Shown one piece after another: positions 38,302-64,000 of a DNA stretch of 64,000 bases. Every line of letters starts with the position of its first letter. Position 1 is the stretch's first letter. Origin of the DNA: Streptomyces sp. NBC_01142 (GTDB lineage: Bacteria > Actinomycetota > Actinomycetes > Streptomycetales > Streptomycetaceae). A model generated the notes under the pieces. That model was given only the letters and a program-made list of their open reading frames with translations. It had not been told where the DNA came from and made no database searches. The translations under genes were made by a program, and so were the position numbers. Location: NCBI RefSeq assembly GCF_026341125.1, contig NZ_JAPEOR010000002.1, forward strand, positions 3,093,001 through 3,157,000, written 5' to 3'.

Positions 38302-38375
38302 GGGGCTATAGCTCAGTTGGTTAGAGCGCATCCCTGATAAGGATGAGGCCACAGGTTCAAATCCTGTTAGCCCCA
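38302..38375 (+). tRNA. tRNA-Ile (anticodon GAT)
   Basis: 74 nt with acceptor GGGGCTA/TAGCCCC, D-loop AGCTCAGTTGGTTAGAGC, anticodon loop CTGATAA and T-arm ACAGGTTCAAATCCTGT. CCA is not encoded (ACA follows). It lies at the boundary between core chromosome and accessory DNA; tRNA 3' ends are the usual attachment sites of Streptomyces integrative elements. Confidence 0.97.
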
Positions 38376-38392
38376 CAGTGGTAAGGCAGTAC

Positions 38393-57148: not shown

Positions 57149-57256
57149 GTGGCTCGAAGGAAGCGTCCGTTCCTTGAGAACTCCACAGAGTGCCTGGACA
57201 AACGAGTGCTTTTGATCTTCGGCACCGCCATCCGTAGTGGGCGGTGCCGAAGGTGA
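57149..57256 (+). CDS. Leader ORF of the transfer operon (35 codons)
   Basis: GTG 57149 with a perfect GGAGGG 6 nt upstream reads ARRKRPFLENSTECLDKRVL onward and stops at 57254-57256. The frame covers the antitermination-like box and the first arm and loop of the following hairpin, so its translation would change folding of the leader. It may be a regulatory leader peptide rather than a functional protein. Confidence 0.45.
   Translation: MARRKRPFLENSTECLDKRVLLIFGTAIRSGRCRR
57171..57193 (+). promoter_or_regulatory. rRNA-leader-like antitermination box
   Basis: TCCTTGAGAACTCCACAGAG and following TGC closely resemble the sequence TTGAGAACTCAACAGCGTGC that precedes 16S rRNA in Streptomyces and relatives and is thought to serve antitermination or processing. 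The rRNA sequence is recalled, not searched. It stands before two hairpins in the transfer-operon leader. Confidence 0.5.
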
Positions 57257-57283
57257 TGACCACTCGTCTCCGGATGAGTGGTC
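57217..57283 (+). terminator. Two consecutive leader hairpins (attenuator-like)
   Basis: Hairpin 1: CTTCGGCACCGCC (57217-57229) with 57240-57252, perfect 13 bp. Hairpin 2: GACCACTC (57258-57265) with 57276-57283, 8 bp. Both lie between the promoters and the first long gene at 57347, so they must be read through. Confidence 0.7.
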
Positions 57284-57346
57284 TCCCTGACCTAGGCCGC
57301 GGCGGCTCTCACGCGCCGCTGGCCTCTACTCCCGAAGGGGGACCCG

Positions 57347-57721
57347 ATGAAGCTCGCGATCGGCGATGTCGTCCGAGATCGCAGCGATATGGCGCTTGGC
57401 ACGGTTATCGGCGTCACCAGCCAGACCGGCGGCAACCTCGTCGCGTTCTACGTCTCCAGCCACACGGTGCGCCTTGGCGAGCCGGATCGCCTGGACGTCG
57501 TAGCCCGCCACACCAAGCCGCCGACGAAGGCCCGCAGGGTGCTGGCTCTGATCGCCTTCTCCCTCGCGTTACTCGCCGCTTTCCTCGGCGGTCACTCCGC
57601 CCGGGAAACCGGTGCCGACTGGCCGCTGACGTCGCTGGCGAGTCTCGGTGGCTACATGGCGGTGGCCATGACGTACCACTGGGGCGGTCGTCTGACCGGC
57701 CCTCGGCGCTTCCACGTCTGA
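57347..57721 (+). CDS. Small membrane protein of the transfer operon
   Basis: A 124-residue protein. The first 60 residues are a soluble beta-rich region (KLAIGDVVRDRSDMALGTVI, NLVAFYVSSHTVRLGEPDRL). Two membrane helices follow (RVLALIAFSLALLAAFLGGH and LASLGGYMAVAMTYHWGG). ATG 57347 is preceded by GGGGGA. First long gene of the unit; no family recognised. Confidence 0.7.
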   Translation: MKLAIGDVVRDRSDMALGTVIGVTSQTGGNLVAFYVSSHTVRLGEPDRLDVVARHTKPPTKARRVLALIAFSLALLAAFLGGHSARETGADWPLTSLASLGGYMAVAMTYHWGGRLTGPRRFHV

Positions 57722-57733
57722 TCCCTTCCGTAG

Positions 57734-57776
57734 CCAGCGGCGGTGGTCGACGGGTCAAGAAAGCCCACCGCCCTGG
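57734..57776 (+). ncRNA. Conserved leader hairpin element, copy 1
   Basis: Stem GGCGGTGG (57739-57746)/CCACCGCC (57765-57772) with an 18-nt loop TCGACGGGTCAAGAAAGC; four more pairs (57734-57737/57773-57776) past one bulged C. It is followed by CTCCCATCCCATCCA and lies 40 nt before the next start codon. The same structure recurs at 63413. Confidence 0.65.
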
Positions 57777-57811
57777 CTCTCCCATCCCATCCAGGACCTA
57801 GGAGAGATCCA

Positions 57812-58144
57812 ATGCGTACGTATGTTGGCGGCCAGGAGGCCCTGAACGCCTTCGAGTTCGGGGAGCTGGCCTACGGATTCGGGGACCCGATGCCCGAGGA
57901 CTTCCGGGACCTCTTCGTCGGCGAGCCGGCAGAGTCCACCCAGCAGCGCGCGGCTCGCATGGCGGTTGCCCGCGAGGTGCTGGCGGAGCTCCAGGAGCAG
58001 AGCGAGGAAGACGAGGTCTCCCGGCTCAATGCGCGCTACGCGGCCCAGCTCAGCAGGGTCGTACCGCTGCGGCGGAGGGTGAGTGCGCCGGAGGGAAAAG
58101 TGGACGCGAAGTCCTCGGTACGCGGGGCGAGGAAGGTCGCGTGA
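57812..58144 (+). CDS. Hypothetical protein of the transfer operon
   Basis: A 110-residue protein beginning MRTYVGGQEALNAFEFGELA, with an acidic N-terminal half and a helical charged region (RMAVAREVLAELQEQSEEDE), then a basic tail. ATG 57812 has TAGGAG upstream; the longer frame would read through the conserved leader hairpin. The stop overlaps the SpdB-like start by 4 nt. Confidence 0.72.
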   Translation: MRTYVGGQEALNAFEFGELAYGFGDPMPEDFRDLFVGEPAESTQQRAARMAVAREVLAELQEQSEEDEVSRLNARYAAQLSRVVPLRRRVSAPEGKVDAKSSVRGARKVA

Positions 58145-59097
58145 GCACGACGACTCCACCGATCGCCGCACCTCCACCGCTGAGCAAGACAGAGAGGACG
58201 TTGCTGGGCACCGTCATCCCTGCCGGCACAGGGGTGGGAGGCTTGGGCCTCGCTGCCTCGTTCAACTCCGTATCCGAGGCCGCGAATCGCTGGGGATTCA
58301 CGTATCCGTGGATGCTGCCGGTTGGAATCGACCTCGCCATCCCCGTGTTCACCGCGGCCAATCTCCTGCTGATCCGGCTCGGCATGCCGTTGGCATGGGT
58401 GCGGTTCGTGCCCTGGGGCCTGACGCTGGTCACCTGCTGGCTGAACATCGCAGCCGGGAGCTCGGTCTCGGCGAAGGTCGCTCACGGGGCGATGCCCCTG
58501 CTGTGGGTAGTGCTGAGTGAGATCGCCGCCCACATCTACGCCGTCCGCATCGGTGCGGCGACCGGGGCGCGGATGGAACGCATCCGCCGCTCCCGCTGGC
58601 TGATCGCACCCCGTACGACGCTGCTGCTCTGGCGCCGAATGGTCCTGTGGGAGACCACCGACTACCGGGAAGCGCTGGCGTTGGAAAAGCAGCGGCTGTT
58701 GGTTCGCGCCGAACTGTGCGAGAGCTACGGCCGTGGATGGCGCAGGAAGGCTCCGCGTCGAGATCTGGTGCTGCTCAAGCTGGGGGAGTTGACCCCCGAC
58801 GGTTTCTCCCCGACTGATGAGGAAGAGGAGCCGGACGCTGAGTCGGGCTCAGGGTCGGCCCCTCGGCAACGCCGCAAAGTCAGGCCGGAGAAGAAGAGTC
58901 GGCGCATGACGTGGGGCGAGGCGATCTCCAAGGCCCGTGAGGAGACGGCTGGTTGGCCGTACGAACGCCTTGACGCGGAGCCCATTCGTAGGGTCGTCGG
59001 CTGTAGTCAGGACCGCTCTCGTCAGCTACGCGACGTGCTCAGGGCCGAGCGTCTGACGGAGACAGCAAAGGCGGAACCCATCGAGGCCACTGTCTGA
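58141..59097 (+). CDS. SpdB-like DUF2637 membrane protein (plasmid spread)
   Basis: A 318-residue protein. Four membrane helices fall in the first 140 residues (VIPAGTGVGGLGLAASF, PWMLPVGIDLAIPVFTAANL, FVPWGLTLVTCWLNIAAGSS, AMPLLWVVLSEIAAHIYAVR), the DUF2637 plan of Streptomyces Spd proteins. The C-terminal half is cytosolic with a helix-turn-helix-like end (PIRRVVGCSQDRSRQLRDVL). Spd proteins spread transferred DNA through the recipient mycelium and associate with the translocase, whose gene follows. Confidence 0.85.
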   Translation: MSTTTPPIAAPPPLSKTERTLLGTVIPAGTGVGGLGLAASFNSVSEAANRWGFTYPWMLPVGIDLAIPVFTAANLLLIRLGMPLAWVRFVPWGLTLVTCWLNIAAGSSVSAKVAHGAMPLLWVVLSEIAAHIYAVRIGAATGARMERIRRSRWLIAPRTTLLLWRRMVLWETTDYREALALEKQRLLVRAELCESYGRGWRRKAPRRDLVLLKLGELTPDGFSPTDEEEEPDAESGSGSAPRQRRKVRPEKKSRRMTWGEAISKAREETAGWPYERLDAEPIRRVVGCSQDRSRQLRDVLRAERLTETAKAEPIEATV

Positions 59098-59135
59098 AGT
59101 GCGCCCGATATCAACCCTCTGAACTACCCGTTTGA

Positions 59136-59180
59136 GCTGAGGCCCGGCCGCTGCTTTGGCGGGTAGGGCCAGGCCTCAGC
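59136..59180 (+). terminator. Hairpin in the spdB-tra gap
   Basis: GCTGAGGCC (59136-59144) pairs perfectly with GGCCTCAGC (59172-59180). The 27-nt interior can pair further. It lies 28 nt before the translocase start, so it may attenuate transcription or affect translation. Confidence 0.55.
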
Positions 59181-59208
59181 TTCCCTCCCGTTCCGGAAGG
59201 AAGTGCCA

Positions 59209-61392
59209 GTGAAGCACGACGACAACGACGATCAGGCGCGCGAGATCTTCGCGCGACTGGAGAAAGAGATGGCCCCCGACTCTGAGGACTCCGCAGGGTC
59301 GGTACTCAACTTCGGCAAGCACCAGTCGGACGGCAACCGACCGTCAGGGTCGGCCGACCCTGACGAGGTCACCAAGGTCGACCGTCCCGGCGGACCGTCG
59401 GGTCCCGGCCTGATGGACCGGGTACGCGGCGCGAAGCGCCGACCGGTCATCCCGGCATGGGCAAAGTCGGGTCGCGAGTTCAAGGCCGCCGGCAAGGGCG
59501 TCGCCGCGTACGCCTGGCACGTCGCCGCCTATCACGCGGTCCGCACGCCGTGGTACACACTGCGGCTGACGCTGCAGGTGCCGCGCGGTGCGGCCCGGTT
59601 CGTGGGCGACTCGCTGCGGTGGGTCGTGGACGCTGAGGGGGAGCCGCTCCGTCAGGACGCGGCCAGCCGCGAGGACGTTGGCGACTACCTGAAGCTCAGT
59701 CGTCAGCGCGACCGGCGGGTGCGCTGGCGCACCGTCGTCGCGGTCGCCGCCTCGGTCGTGGGCACCACTACGGCGCTGGCACTGTACGTTCTGGCCCCAA
59801 CGTGGCTGCTAGTGCTCTCGGCCTCCGTGGTGACCATGGCGATGGGCCGACTCGGCCAACCGGCCGACGATCCGGTCATCCACAGGGCTGTGGAAATCCC
59901 CAAGGCGACCAAGCTCACCAGCGACATCGTGCTCCGCGCCCTCGGCTCCCTGGGGATTCCGGCGATCAACCAAGCACAGTCCAAGGGCGGGGACGGCTTC
60001 ACCTTCACCGCTCCCATCACCCGCGATGGTCCCGGTTGGCTCGCCGAGGGCGATCTCCCCTACGGCGTGACCGTGACGGATGTCATCGACCGTCGAGACA
60101 AGCTGGCGTCGGGCCTCCGCCGCCCGCTGGGCTGTGTCTGGCCCGAGGCAGTGCCGGACGAACACACCGGTCGGCTTCGGCTGTGGGTTGGCGATCAGGA
60201 CATGTCGCAGACCGAGAAGGCGCAATGGCCGCTCGCGAAGACCGGTGCCGTGGACCTCTTCAAGCCCGTCGACTGGGGTACTGACCAGCGAGGGCGGTGG
60301 GTCGGCATGACGCTCATGTACATCGCGGGCGTCATCGGCGCTATCCCGAGGATGGGCAAGACTTTCCTTCTGCGGCTCTTGCTCCTTATGGGCGCGCTGG
60401 ATCCTCGGGCGGAGATTCACAGCTTCGACCTGAAGGGCACAGGCGACCTGGACACGGTCGGCGACCGCGTCTCCTATCGGCACCGTGCCGGTGAGGAGCA
60501 AGCGGACATCGAGTACATCCTCGCCGATCTCCGGGAAGTGCAGGGTGAGTTGCGCCGCCGAGCGAAGGTCATCCGCTCGCTTCCCCGCGACGTATGCCCA
60601 GAGTCGAAGGTCACCACCGAACTCGCCTCCAAACGATCGCTCGGCCTCCACCCGATCGTCATCGGGGTGGATGAGTGCCAGATCCTCTTCGAGCACCCGA
60701 AGCACGGTGCAGAGTTCAAAGAGATCTGCACCGACCTGGTCAAGCGCGGCCCAGCCACCGGCATTGTGCTGCTGCTTGCCACACAGAGGCCGGACAAGGA
60801 CGCCATCCCGACTTCGATCAGCGCCAATGCCTCCGCCCGCTGGTGCCTCAAGGTCATGGGGCAGATCGAGAACGACATGGTCCTCGGGACCGGCGCCTAC
60901 AAGCGGGGCATCCGGGCGAACATGTTCGCCTGGGGTGACAAGGGCATCTGTTACTTCCTCGGCGAGGGAGCGGACGCGCGTATCGTCCGGTCGGCGTTCA
61001 TCGACGCGGTAGAGGCAGACCGAATCGCCCTTCGGGCCCGCGCGCTTCGCGAGCGCGCCGGCACCCTTGCCGGTCATGCGCTCGGCGAGCAGCCAGAGAC
61101 CAATCTGGCCGCCTCGTACGACCTGCTCACCGACCTGTTCGCCGTGGTCCCCGCCGAAGAGCCCAAGGCTTGGTCCGAGACAGTCGTGACCCGGCTCGCT
61201 GAGCTCCGGCCGGAGATCTACGGCGAGTGGACGCTCGAGCACCTCGCGGCAGCGCTCAAGCCGCTCGGCATCCGCACCTCGCAGATGTGGGGCACCACGG
61301 AGGACGGCAAGGGCGCCAACCGGCGCGGTATCAAGCGCGCCGACATCCTCAGGGTGATTGCGGAACGTGACGGAAGAGCCGACGCCGCATAG
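59209..61392 (+). CDS. FtsK/SpoIIIE-family conjugative DNA translocase (TraB/TraSA type)
   Basis: A 727-residue motor that transfers double-stranded DNA in Streptomyces mating. The N-terminal 160 residues are charged and lack domains. Two membrane helices lie near 185-225 (TVVAVAASVVGTTTALALYV, LVLSASVVTMAMG). In the ATPase, Walker A is GAIPRMGKTF (about 377-386) and Walker B PIVIGVDECQILFEH (about 482-496). A C-terminal winged helix (LAAALKPLGIRTSQMWGTTE) would read clt repeats. GTG 59209 is favoured over 59203 by spacing from GGAAGG. Confidence 0.92.
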   Translation: MKHDDNDDQAREIFARLEKEMAPDSEDSAGSVLNFGKHQSDGNRPSGSADPDEVTKVDRPGGPSGPGLMDRVRGAKRRPVIPAWAKSGREFKAAGKGVAAYAWHVAAYHAVRTPWYTLRLTLQVPRGAARFVGDSLRWVVDAEGEPLRQDAASREDVGDYLKLSRQRDRRVRWRTVVAVAASVVGTTTALALYVLAPTWLLVLSASVVTMAMGRLGQPADDPVIHRAVEIPKATKLTSDIVLRALGSLGIPAINQAQSKGGDGFTFTAPITRDGPGWLAEGDLPYGVTVTDVIDRRDKLASGLRRPLGCVWPEAVPDEHTGRLRLWVGDQDMSQTEKAQWPLAKTGAVDLFKPVDWGTDQRGRWVGMTLMYIAGVIGAIPRMGKTFLLRLLLLMGALDPRAEIHSFDLKGTGDLDTVGDRVSYRHRAGEEQADIEYILADLREVQGELRRRAKVIRSLPRDVCPESKVTTELASKRSLGLHPIVIGVDECQILFEHPKHGAEFKEICTDLVKRGPATGIVLLLATQRPDKDAIPTSISANASARWCLKVMGQIENDMVLGTGAYKRGIRANMFAWGDKGICYFLGEGADARIVRSAFIDAVEADRIALRARALRERAGTLAGHALGEQPETNLAASYDLLTDLFAVVPAEEPKAWSETVVTRLAELRPEIYGEWTLEHLAAALKPLGIRTSQMWGTTEDGKGANRRGIKRADILRVIAERDGRADAA

Positions 61393-61399
61393 CTGCCGC

Positions 61400-61490
61400 G
61401 GTGCTAGACCTAGCGGCCACCCCCGCTAGGTCTAGCACCCCCGCTAGCGCCCTAAGTCGCCTCTGAACTGGCCGCTAGCGTCTAGCGGCC
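61400..61490. repeat. CTAG-rich palindrome cluster after the translocase gene
   Basis: A perfect 17-bp inverted repeat (61400-61416 GGTGCTAGACCTAGCGG with 61423-61439) is followed by GGCCGCTAG-CGT-CTAGCGGCC (61470-61490, 9-bp arms) and CCGCTAGCG at 61441. Seven CTAG tetramers occur in 91 bp. It follows the tra stop by 7 bp. Terminator, clt-type transfer locus or regulator site are all possible. Confidence 0.75.
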
Positions 61491-61532
61491 CTCTCCGAGC
61501 ACACCCTGATTCCTGCCCTGAGAGGGGTCCTC

Positions 61533-61787
61533 ATGTCTTCGATGCTTTCCTATGCACCCGGCCTGATATTCCTCACGCTCTGCTACGGAGCACTGTGCGC
61601 CGCCAGCCCGTTCGGAACCTGCCGCAAGTGCAAGGGCTGGGGCTCCAAGGCCCGGGTGGGGCGCTTCACCGGACACCTCAAGCGCGGCCGTGAATGCCGC
61701 CGCTGCAGCGGCTACGGCCGCCGCATTCGTCTCGGTCGCCGCATCTACAACATCGCCTCTCGCCTTCACGGCGAGGGCACCCGCTGA
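61533..61787 (+). CDS. Small zinc-knuckle membrane protein
   Basis: An 84-residue protein. An N-terminal hydrophobic helix (APGLIFLTLCYGALCAA) is followed by two CxxCxGxG-type knuckles, CRKCKGWG and CRRCSGYG, 27 residues apart, as in DnaJ-like zinc domains. Basic C-terminus. ATG 61533 follows GAGAGGGG. Such proteins are common next to tra in Streptomyces integrative elements; function unknown. Confidence 0.75.
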   Translation: MSSMLSYAPGLIFLTLCYGALCAASPFGTCRKCKGWGSKARVGRFTGHLKRGRECRRCSGYGRRIRLGRRIYNIASRLHGEGTR

Positions 61788-61809
61788 CCCGTCCCAAGGA
61801 GGCTCCGCC

Positions 61810-62004
61810 ATGTTCCTCACCATCTCCGCGCTCGCGCTGTTCGGCCTCCTCCTGGCCCTGCTCCTGCGCTTCAAGGCCCTCGGCATTGGCGCTGCCGTGG
61901 TCGCCCTCCTCTTCGGCTTCTACCTCTCCAGGACGGGAGCCGCCGCCTCCATCGACCAAGTCATGAACGCCCTCGCGGACGCCGTCCGCGACGTCGGCAA
62001 CTGA
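61810..62004 (+). CDS. Small two-span membrane protein
   Basis: A 64-residue protein: FLTISALALFGLLLALLLRF and GIGAAVVALLFGFYLSRTGA, then a short soluble tail (IDQVMNALADAVRDVGN). ATG 61810 has AAGGAGG upstream; the frame extends left through the previous gene but only in a shadow. Probably a transfer or spread accessory protein. Confidence 0.75.
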   Translation: MFLTISALALFGLLLALLLRFKALGIGAAVVALLFGFYLSRTGAAASIDQVMNALADAVRDVGN

Positions 62005-62026
62005 CCCCAAGAGAGGAATCCCGACC

Positions 62027-62269
62027 ATGTCCAAGCAGAACGCAACCGTCCGGCCGCGCATCTCGCTGATGGCCTCCGGTGAACTCCGCGATGCCCTCAC
62101 CGCGATTGAAGAAGGCAAGGGTCCGGCGGCCATCGCCGCCCTGATGGCAATAGATGCCGCTTCCTGGCAGGCGATCGAGCACCGCCTTGCAATCGTCGTA
62201 GGCAGCGATCTCCGTGCACTCCTCCTGGGTGCCGCCGGCGGGATCCAGGAGGCTCAGGCCCTTGGCTGA
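62027..62269 (+). CDS. Hypothetical small helical protein
   Basis: An 80-residue protein starting MSKQNATVRPRISLMASGEL with an Ala-rich helical body (GKGPAAIAALMAIDAASWQA). GAGAGG precedes ATG 62027. No Cys, no membrane span, no family recognised. Same strand and tight spacing as its neighbours. Confidence 0.65.
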   Translation: MSKQNATVRPRISLMASGELRDALTAIEEGKGPAAIAALMAIDAASWQAIEHRLAIVVGSDLRALLLGAAGGIQEAQALG

Positions 62270-62357
62270 CGGTTCCCCGTCCGGTCCCAACTCCCAAGGA
62301 GGTGGGACCGAGCGGAGGACCGGAGAGCCCGGCCTGCACTCCACATGGAGGACGCCG

Positions 62358-63020
62358 ATGCCCAACCCCACCAGCGTGTGGTTCCACAGCCTCGCTGACA
62401 GCGTGTTCGCTCTCGGGGCGGCAGCCCGCGAGTACCGGACCGCCAACCAAACGGCGCGGATTGCCGCTTGGAATGCCGATCCGTTCCGTCTGCTCTCCAT
62501 CGATGGAACGCTGAACGTTCCTGGTGCGCACTTCATCCGCCCACACGACGACGCTCTGTCTCGACTCGAAGAGATCTACCGGCAGACGGAGAGCCGAGCC
62601 AGGGAGCTGTACGAGGACACGGCATTGGCCTACGCCTACGGCACGGCCGGAGCCCTGCAGGCCGTACTCAAGGGCGAAAGCCCCCAGTACGTCGAGCTGC
62701 ATCGTCAGGACGGCCGCTACGTGATTCCCGACAGCCTGCTGCCCGACCTCCATGCGGCCCTCGGCGAGTGGTCCGGCAATCAGCGGCTCGCCGTTCTCCG
62801 GGACGACGTCACCGCCCGCGAGTGTGCCGTCGCCGTCGCCAACGACCTTGCTTCATACGGCCGCCTGTCGGACGACGAGGCTGCCGAGATGGCAAACGCC
62901 TCCGAATTCGCCACCGGACTGGCGGACTGCGCATACGCCTACGGCGAGAAGGCTGAAAGCGCCCTGCATTTCCTGCTGACTGCAGCCAGGGCGAATCCCA
63001 ACCCCAAGGAGAAGCAATGA
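62358..63020 (+). CDS. Hypothetical protein of the replication/transfer module
   Basis: A 220-residue mostly helical protein beginning MPNPTSVWFHSLADSVFALG, with EEIYRQTESRARELYEDTAL and a C-terminal SALHFLLTAARANPNPKEKQ. ATG 62358 follows GGAGG. The stop overlaps the next start by 4 nt. A G-rich hairpin (GGTCCCA near 62284 with TGGGACC near 62304) lies in its leader. No family recognised. Confidence 0.7.
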   Translation: MPNPTSVWFHSLADSVFALGAAAREYRTANQTARIAAWNADPFRLLSIDGTLNVPGAHFIRPHDDALSRLEEIYRQTESRARELYEDTALAYAYGTAGALQAVLKGESPQYVELHRQDGRYVIPDSLLPDLHAALGEWSGNQRLAVLRDDVTARECAVAVANDLASYGRLSDDEAAEMANASEFATGLADCAYAYGEKAESALHFLLTAARANPNPKEKQ

Positions 63021-63406
63021 CGTTCGAAACGAGTGGTCCCGAGGCCGCCCTCAACACGTCGGACCCCGACGTCACCTACGCGGATGCCCCCAGCATCATC
63101 TCCGAAATCGGCTGGGTCACTCAGCAAGCCGCCAGCCGCCGCCTCGGCTCGAAGCTCGGCCGCGAGTTCTGGCTCCGAAAGGCTGCGCTTCTGGACCGCA
63201 TCGCCCTGCAGGAGGCCGCCACGTACGCGCCGGAGGTCGCCGCTACCGCCATTCAGACCGCTGAGGGGGCTGCCCTCGGGCTGATCGATTTCGACTCGGC
63301 GCACACCGGGCTCAGCCCCAGGGGCGCGGACCTGGCCACTGACGGGGACCGCCGCGACTACGTCCGCGAGCAGTACAGCGAATGGAGTCGCTCGCAGCTC
63401 TTCTGA
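63017..63406 (+). CDS. Hypothetical protein, coupled to upstream gene
   Basis: A 129-residue protein starting MTFETSGPEAALNTSDPDVT, with a central amphipathic part (GREFWLRKAALLDRIALQEA) and an acidic C-terminal region. The ATGA overlap with the previous gene shows translational coupling. No family recognised. The next gene is separated by a copy of the conserved leader hairpin. Confidence 0.7.
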   Translation: MTFETSGPEAALNTSDPDVTYADAPSIISEIGWVTQQAASRRLGSKLGREFWLRKAALLDRIALQEAATYAPEVAATAIQTAEGAALGLIDFDSAHTGLSPRGADLATDGDRRDYVREQYSEWSRSQLF

Positions 63407-63412
63407 TCTCGC

Positions 63413-63454
63413 CCGGGGCAGTGGTCGACGGGTCAACGCAGCCCACTGCCCCGG
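63413..63454 (+). ncRNA. Conserved leader hairpin element, copy 2
   Basis: A perfect 12-bp stem (63413-63424 CCGGGGCAGTGG with 63443-63454) and an 18-nt loop TCGACGGGTCAACGCAGC, 15 of 18 identical to copy 1. One stem pair is G-C in copy 1 and A-T here. Followed by CTCCCATCCCATCCA and the next start at 63496. Confidence 0.65.
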
Positions 63455-63495
63455 TTCCTCCCATCCCATCCACGGAATCAGGAGGTGCCATCAGG

Positions 63496-64000
63496 ATGCA
63501 CCACAACACTCCTTGCCCGCTGCCCCGCGCCGCTCTCGAAGCGACTGAGCGCGGCTGGCACGTCTTCCCCCTCATCCCGGACAGCAAGCGCCCGGCCATC
63601 CGATCTTGGGAACCGCGCGCAACGACCGACGCCGACCGTGTCACGCGCTGCTGGACGGCTGGTGACTACAACCTCGGCATCGCGGCTGGTCCCTCCGGCC
63701 TGGTGGTCGTCGACCTGGACGTGCCCAAGCACGACCAGGACGTGCCGCCCGCCGAGACTCCCTCGTACGTGGCCGATGGTTCGGACATGTTCGCCGTACT
63801 CGCCGAGCGGCACGGCCAGACGCTCCCCATCCAGACGTACAGCGTCCGCACGGCCAGCGGGGGCACTCACCTCTACTTCGCGGCCCCCGCCGACGTGGAG
63901 CTGCGCAACACTGCGGGCACGCTCGGATGGAAGATCGACACCCGCGCAAGCGGCGGCTACGTCGTAGGCGCGCACAGCTCGGTCGACGGCAAGCCCTACT
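63496..64000 (+). CDS. Bifunctional DNA primase/polymerase (prim-pol) replication protein, partial
   Basis: 168 residues before the window ends. The N-terminal prim-pol domain is recognised by ALEATERGWHVFPLIPDSKR, GDYNLGIAAGPSGLVVVDLD (DxD metal site VVDLDVP), TYSVRTASGGTHLYFAAP and IDTRASGGYVVGAHSSVDG. AICE replication proteins of this type usually continue with a helicase domain, which would lie outside. ATG 63496 has GGAGG upstream at 63481. It primes autonomous replication of the excised element. Confidence 0.88.
   Translation, partial: MHHNTPCPLPRAALEATERGWHVFPLIPDSKRPAIRSWEPRATTDADRVTRCWTAGDYNLGIAAGPSGLVVVDLDVPKHDQDVPPAETPSYVADGSDMFAVLAERHGQTLPIQTYSVRTASGGTHLYFAAPADVELRNTAGTLGWKIDTRASGGYVVGAHSSVDGKPY

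Follow-up and report, generated by a model that had tools for sequence, protein, structure and literature searches.

Leader hairpins with element-matched loops before unrelated genes of Streptomyces integrative and conjugative elements

A general class of translational operators and riboregulators works by hiding the Shine-Dalgarno sequence. The leaders analyzed here are like them in that a 5′ leader hairpin and an anti-Shine-Dalgarno word lie directly before a start codon, and unlike them in that there are often multiple copies per mobile element, before unrelated genes, each element tending to have a loop word of its own. The leaders were studied from a 64,000-nucleotide (nt) stretch of Streptomyces sp. 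NBC_01142 DNA (contig NZ_JAPEOR010000002.1, positions 3,093,001 to 3,157,000; hereafter the window, in whose coordinates positions are given). The DNA that bears them is an actinomycete integrative and conjugative element (AICE).

In the available parts of the published accounts, an AICE is defined by an integrase, a replication gene (PrimPol, RepAM or RepSA) and an FtsK/TraB gene in one element (PMC3218068), and in the AICE pSAM2 the KorSA/Pra system coordinates the replication, excision and integration genes (PMC8584621, PMC3218068). This control is described there as transcriptional, with KorSA as a GntR repressor and Pra as an activator; the same parts mention no leader, and the available text of PMC8584621 is without the words leader and hairpin. 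Like pSAM2, the window element carries GntR genes, and its transfer genes are preceded by a small one, an acidic open reading frame (ORF) of 110 amino acids (aa) that is possibly the counterpart of Pra. The STAXI motif, in the available part of its description, is likewise a repeated structured motif beside DNA-handling genes, for which its authors discuss RNA and single-stranded DNA; it consists of tandem pseudoknots, often with UUCG loops, whereas the leaders here stand singly, pair with the Shine-Dalgarno and have loops specific to the element (PMC2864571). The gntR-DTE RNA (RF02989) adjoins the leaders in some elements, but differs from them in sequence and structure. A literature search, not exhaustive of print, found no earlier description of such leaders.

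Leaders A and B and their family

Two intergenic hairpins had been picked out by the sequence-only reading of the window; they belong to leaders A and B, whose parts are as follows.

57729..57814, + strand: leader A, from a few bases past the upstream stop codon (57719-57721) to the ATG of the acidic ORF; R1 88.7 bits
57733..57777, + strand: hairpin 1 of leader A, arms 57733-57737/57773-57777 and 57739-57746/57765-57772, with a bulged C at 57738
57747..57764, + strand: loop of leader A, TCGACGGGTCAAGAAAGC; its 5′ part is element-specific and its 3′ part more widely shared
57777..57806, + strand: hairpin 2 of leader A, CTCTCC (57777-57782) opposite the Shine-Dalgarno GGAGAG (57801-57806)
63407..63498, + strand: leader B, from immediately past the upstream stop codon (63404-63406) to the PrimPol ATG; R1 103 bits
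63413..63454, + strand: hairpin 1 of leader B, arms 63413-63424/63443-63454
63425..63442, + strand: loop of leader B, TCGACGGGTCAACGCAGC
63457..63485, + strand: hairpin 2 of leader B, CCTCC (63457-63461) opposite the Shine-Dalgarno GGAGG (63481-63485)

The likeness described in that reading was borne out. Both loops are 18 nt long and, read as sequence, agree at 15/18 bases; the trailing CTCCCATCCCATCCA is identical in A (57779-57793) and B (63458-63472); and 39 nt (A) and 41 nt (B) separate the 3′ arm from the start codon (ATG at 57812 for the acidic ORF, at 63496 for PrimPol). The stems differ yet stay paired, with one pair where A has G-C and B has A-T. What follows the two leaders is unrelated: the acidic ORF matched no family in Pfam or NCBIfam, and leader B precedes a PrimPol gene (PF09250).

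The word TGGTCGACGGGTCAA is exact at both leaders and occurs at no other place even when up to 3 mismatches are allowed; it is notable by exactness and context only, because shuffles expect 2.56 matches at that tolerance. Within the window CTCCCATCCCATCCA is exact at the two leader sites only, with 5 further sites at 3 mismatches, and the combined leader pattern has exactly 2 occurrences in the 10.1-Mb genome. Compared with dinucleotide shuffles, hairpin 1 gave z -2.90 (1/200) in A and z -3.87 (0/200) in B, while the whole leaders fold less strikingly (A, z -1.97, 10/200; B, z -2.70, 1/200).

A scan for the pattern, covering one genome for each species, returned 19 stretches, 12 of which hold a leader and come from Streptomyces and Kitasatospora; the other seven (L009, L012-L016, L019), which show no hairpin, were judged by eye to be chance matches and set aside. 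Several of the 12 hold two copies about 5-6 kb apart, in the same layout as the window. A covariance-model search, the check that the sequence-only reading had proposed, was run with a first model of 16 sequences (14 scan copies and the window's two), and matched 136/392 Streptomyces genomes at E 0.01 (∼4 by chance, the E-values being rough), while the pattern with the window's exact loop is present in only 1/392 genomes of the genus. A second model, built from 115 copies, matched 60/147 genomes of the order, all in a single genus out of 5, and 10/197 genomes of the class, where the sole match outside the genus had an E-value of 8.5e-4, near chance level. Often two to five leaders lie in one mobile element, before unrelated genes. 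A plasmid example is NZ_CP107792.1 (18.5 kb, circular; Streptomyces sp. NBC_00562), with a leader before its PrimPol gene (44 bits, second model). No Rfam 15 family reached its gathering score at the window leaders, the window's only match being a tRNA, and Rfam 15 on seven loci (one of which overlaps the window) gave five matches, none at a leader.

The stems covary strongly in alignments of 115 and of 16 copies. With 115 copies, aligned by fitting to the structure model, 17/17 pairs have changes on both sides and 96.2% of cells are paired; 0/500 shuffles reach any of five measures, and slid controls are 45-62% paired. With 16 copies aligned by MAFFT, 93.3% are paired and 6 pairs changed on both sides, a number reached by 12/500 shuffles. 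Hairpin 1 has about 12 bp and a loop of 15-22 nt. In hairpin 2 the Shine-Dalgarno is paired with a CU-rich word (GGAG with CTCC), and this complementary word 5′ of the Shine-Dalgarno is kept by covariation (helices 2 and 3). Among the 115/158 distinct leaders with GGAGA or GGAGG, TCTCC is found with GGAGA in 53/87 and with GGAGG in 7/28, and CCTCC with GGAGA in 5/87 and with GGAGG in 10/28. The partner word thus tends to follow the Shine-Dalgarno variant. Since hairpin 2 pairs with the Shine-Dalgarno, translational control is suggested.

The leaders also tend towards a certain position: 87/125 begin 0-19 nt past the stop codon of a frame that is open over at least 60 codons, as against 57/625 random positions, and the distance from the loop end to the start codon has a median of 49 nt (interquartile 45-51). 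An ORF of at least 60 aa starts near the model end for 116/125 leaders. By a crude word search these 116 downstream ORFs are 38 PrimPol-like, 29 acidic-ORF-like, 8 integrase-like, 8 RLLDLFSC-like, 3 DUF4097-like, 1 DnaB-like and 29 others. Pfam was run on 16 ORFs, 15 of which start at a leader and one (L110) at a 26-bit match. It confirmed PrimPol (L061), an integrase (L112), a C5 DNA methylase (L070), DUF4097 (L064), DnaB with DUF3987 (L093), an excisionase-like HTH_17/AlpA protein (L092) and FtsK_SpoIIIE (L176; L089 below cut-off). Eight of the 16 had no Pfam family, including three RLLDLFSC ORFs and L060, which is PrimPol-like by word search. A methylase label for the RLLDLFSC ORFs was dropped, since it holds for L070 alone and L066, L069 and L071 have no Pfam match.

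The loop within and between elements

Loops were compared in 184 copies from 107 elements of 77 genomes, an element being taken as leaders on the same contig and strand with gaps below 12 kb; the comparison covers loci with a genome handle, L007, L017, L018, L145 and duplicates being left out. The first 11 nt of the loop are identical in 57/101 pairs from the same element, in 1/84 pairs from different elements of one genome, and in 688/16651 pairs between genomes. The 5′ stem arm differs, at its 12 positions, by 3.23 within an element, 3.56 between elements of one genome and 3.58 between genomes. When the loop type of the discovery was left out, 52/95 same-element pairs were identical, whereas 2000 permutations gave 6.0 on average and 16 at most; in 41/95 the loop is identical and the stem differs at 2 or more positions. 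Because stems differ while loops agree, these leaders are not recent duplicates; recent duplication of coding sequence was an explanation that the sequence-only reading had named as able to overturn it. Among the first copies of the 107 elements there are 55 distinct 11-nt loop words, while the 3′ part of the loop (CCAAGG, CCAAAG, CACAAG and similar) is common to many loop types. The same loop variant stands before unrelated genes, for example in L055, L057 and L058. In the window's own genome, an FtsK-like gene of a second element (G000:C3:96278-96366, L176) is preceded by a leader whose loop, TACACCGGCCAAGGAAGTC, is not that of the window element. This loop, often matched within an element and differing between elements, is our main result, and it suggests that each element controls its own gene set by a recognition signal private to it.

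The window element has a third leader, of class C, before its FtsK/TraB-like gene.

59136..59211, + strand: class C leader, before the FtsK/TraB-like gene, whose GTG is at 59209
59136-59180, + strand: class C hairpin, loop GCTGCTTTGGCGGGTA; CTTCC (59180-59184) lies opposite GGAAG (59195-59199)

Class C leaders mostly have GGAAG with UUCC-type words, and their preference for their own Shine-Dalgarno is slight (-6.85 vs -6.62 kcal/mol, for 20 tails chosen by hand of about 25). A listing of hairpins before FtsK/TraB-like genes gave one in 42/44 regions. By eye, the class C loop is present in one orientation in 22 elements and as its reverse complement in three (the window, L055 and L057); the remaining 17 of the 42 hairpins lie in coding sequence or other leaders. 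In the three inverted cases (59150-59165 in the window) the loop is kept and the stems have diverged.

What the loop may address

Our preferred reading is of a leader regulon that acts on translation and is read by an element-encoded factor, probably a protein, and we give it slightly better than an even chance. The observations behind it are the covariation, the position, the Shine-Dalgarno complementarity, the gene set, and the agreement of loops within elements together with their difference between elements. In it, the hairpins are copies of one structured leader, placed in Streptomyces AICEs after an upstream stop codon and ahead of an important gene. The loop of hairpin 1 would be displayed to a factor that the element makes, while hairpin 2, with RNA as the presumed active form, would pair the CU-rich word with the Shine-Dalgarno and so hide the ribosome site by default (the inferred direction of a putative switch). 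Binding of the factor to the loop would then alter access to the Shine-Dalgarno. Genes with a loop in common (the acidic one ahead of transfer, those for replication, and in some elements integrase or DUF4097 genes) would be expressed together, and a loop word of its own would keep each element free of cross-talk with co-resident ones. A factor acting in trans is argued for because the loop shows no preference for pairing with its own leader, is often identical before unrelated genes and changes together with them; this factor would be element-encoded because co-resident elements carry different words, and a protein is the first choice because no same-strand antisense RNA was found. The narrower proposal, in which the loop is a private address word on AICE genes, read by an element-encoded RNA-binding protein, and each element has its own insulated post-transcriptional programme, is a tentative one that we rate a little short of evenly balanced.

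Several partners within or near the leader were tried. The sequence-only reading had proposed a cis-acting RNA that coordinates copy number and transfer, with a pseudoknot between the loop GGG and downstream CCC repeats. The part that stood is a covarying cis-acting leader common to the transfer and replication modules, with no Rfam match at the scanned leaders. The pseudoknot fell: pairing with the own downstream sequence is no better than with that of another type (-8.63 vs -9.57 kcal/mol), natural variants change the loop GGG to GGA, GGT or CCC (L058, AACGGATC; L074 and L076, GACGGTTC; L029, CTACCCGG), and L058 and L029 retain the downstream CCC despite the changed loop. A GACGGG:CCC(A/G)TC pairing in the first loop type was rejected with equal energies for matched and mismatched partners (-10.66 and -10.67). 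Loops also pair no better with their own leader than with those of others, as would be the case if they were reserved for a partner. A repeat of the loop in the tail before the Shine-Dalgarno is striking in some elements and was discarded overall (own 5.44 vs foreign 5.28; shuffled 4.78). Similarly, a 9-nt loop complement at window position 61785 is at about chance level and its position is not kept in L055, L057 and L058. CsrA binds a consensus with GGA in a hairpin loop; sites of this type would place GGA in every loop, and the loop types CCGTCTCACCACAAGCCTG and CCTCTCGCCAAAGACCG are without it.

The gntR-DTE RNA was also rejected as a general partner: it matched 44/392 genomes, none of them the window's at E 0.01, and its covariance model has no match in the window. 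It lies just 5′ of a leader in L098 (3200-3325) and, by position, near leaders in G082 and G088. Since gntR-DTE adjoins leaders in some elements (and is mostly elsewhere), part of that family belongs to mobile elements.

Protein similarity was related to loop identity. For six gene families the area under the curve was 0.63-0.86, with 0.86 for the acidic ORF, 0.85 for a small zinc protein encoded 3′ of the translocase gene and 0.74 for TraB; on common loci the zinc protein and TraB gave 0.84 vs 0.81, with a bootstrap interval of the difference of -0.05 to 0.15. In 47 pairs of TraB C-termini at least 85% alike, the loop distance is 0-1 in 37, 2-3 in 5 and 5-6 in 5. The last five, with C-termini 87-92% alike and loops 5-6 edits apart, lean against the loop as a recognition word (clt/TRS site) for TraB.

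Some results weigh against a translational regulon. The link between protein similarity and loop identity is no more than common descent might produce, and co-variation (TraB windows, acidic ORF, zinc protein, six families) singles out no ligand, none having been found. As many as 44/101 same-element pairs are not identical; some of these involve the leader of the FtsK/TraB-like gene with its own loop, and clearly differing loops occur within G210, G251, G303 and G441, for example. The leader copies are related, so that independent events are fewer than the counts and relatedness swells the tallies of pairs and of words. The ORF start near 116/125 leaders is only a moderate enrichment, because 284/625 random positions in these GC-rich regions also have one. 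The remaining points concern the strand test and the inverted class C loop, and they are best taken with the alternative that they favour.

In that alternative the hairpin acts as DNA, in cruciform or single-stranded form, and its loop is contacted by a DNA-binding or replication protein that the element encodes; the site would serve transfer, priming or as an operator, and would lie between genes because gaps are free of coding. In 95 distinct stems, G-U (34) and A-C (23) mismatches are near-equal (p 0.18); RNA should favour G-U, and therefore the strand test does not show RNA. The inverted class C loop with diverged stems, an orientation read by eye, would be more readily explained by a DNA site than by an RNA one, and several leader-bearing genes handle DNA. 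Element-specific clt sites are a feature of Streptomyces plasmids. For pSAM2, PMC9513070 states that no clt motif has been described. However, the motif includes the Shine-Dalgarno partner, this partner tends to follow the Shine-Dalgarno, and the distance to the start codon is fairly fixed. We regard a DNA site as unlikely, and as a contender to be taken seriously. That the hairpins are passive, insulating or stabilising the next cistron, with loops that agree by ancestry or gene conversion and bind no ligand, is improbable in our judgement. Leaders do abut upstream stops, loop types partly follow the relatedness of other element genes, which also tells against a regulon, and strong GC hairpins precede other genes of these elements as well; but loops agree while arms differ in the same copies, gene conversion confined to ∼18 nt, with diverged arms on either side, is difficult to envisage, and one variant recurs before unrelated genes, as in L055, L057 and L058. 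A loop word that changes freely and is matched across the targets of one element is also what base-pairing recognition by an element-encoded antisense RNA would give, and gntR-DTE, just 5′ of leader A in L098, is a candidate small RNA. Against this, the longest same-strand complements of own loops are no longer than those of foreign ones (8.22 vs 8.32 nt, 51 regions), and gntR-DTE has the narrow distribution given above. On the opposite strand own loops have an excess (8.90 vs 8.42), attributed to leader copies missed by the model. An antisense target is, in our view, very improbable.

The element and its significance

The leaders lie in an element of ∼30 kb between 43-bp repeats of a tRNA-Ile 3′ end. 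Its left end and the genes around the leaders are as follows.

38334..38376, + strand: last 43 bp of tRNA-Ile(GAT), left end of the element; repeated exactly at 68253-68295, past the window
57812..58144, + strand: acidic ORF, 110 aa, ahead of the transfer genes
58141..59097, + strand: DUF2637 gene, which we take to be SpdB-like
59209..61392, + strand: FtsK/TraB-like translocase gene; no Pfam match, 65% identity to a plasmid protein annotated FtsK
61533..61787, + strand: 84-aa basic zinc protein, with DnaJ-type zinc motifs below the Pfam cut-off
63496..64000, running past the window, + strand: PrimPol gene (PF09250, E 7.5e-45)

An integrase, a replication gene (PrimPol) and an FtsK/TraB gene, the last assigned from annotated relatives with no Pfam match behind it, lie within this single element, which is integrated at a tRNA with direct repeats (at 38334 and 68253). 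The gene set comprises GntR/UTRA regulators, DUF2637, the FtsK-like translocase, PrimPol, AAA_25, an excisionase-like helix-turn-helix protein and the integrase; 3′ of PrimPol the order is AAA_25, the helix-turn-helix gene (below both cut-offs) and the integrase. By adjacency, leader A heads the acidic ORF, DUF2637 and translocase genes, and leader B the PrimPol unit. The 36 proteins compared with the acidic ORF are named only 'hypothetical' or 'uncharacterized', and its predicted fold was uninformative: helical, with a mean predicted local distance difference test (pLDDT) of 72.1, a predicted template modelling score (pTM) of 0.51 and a best PDB match at E 3.0.

Other features were noted along the element. 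At 57213-57300, two strong hairpins, terminator-like by eye, lie 5′ of an ORF at 57347 that precedes leader A. The zinc protein has a hydrophobic N-terminus and is conserved 3′ of the translocase gene, with relatives in 45/61 compared regions including the window (the only count used from a clustering that otherwise merged unrelated frames). On the + strand 3′ of its gene there is a conserved intergenic sequence of ∼160 nt (L080:1973, L085:8773, L097:8499, L098:8656, L099:8666), inverted-repeat-rich by eye and ending 5′ of a further Shine-Dalgarno; Rfam gave no match there at the four of these five loci that were run. The 498-aa integrase (L004:8768-10264, window coordinates 65768-67264) has a LacI-type helix-turn-helix (PF00356) at residues 302-345, between its N-terminal domains and a weak catalytic-domain match.

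The Shine-Dalgarno pairing, the element-specific loop and the third leader (59136-59211) go beyond the sequence-only reading. If the preferred reading of a translational regulon is true, a post-transcriptional layer would be added to AICE control, in over a third of the sampled Streptomyces genomes. The leaders would then offer a direct way to ask how co-resident elements stay apart, and one loop-reader pair, in its many natural versions, would become available for orthogonal regulation in Streptomyces.

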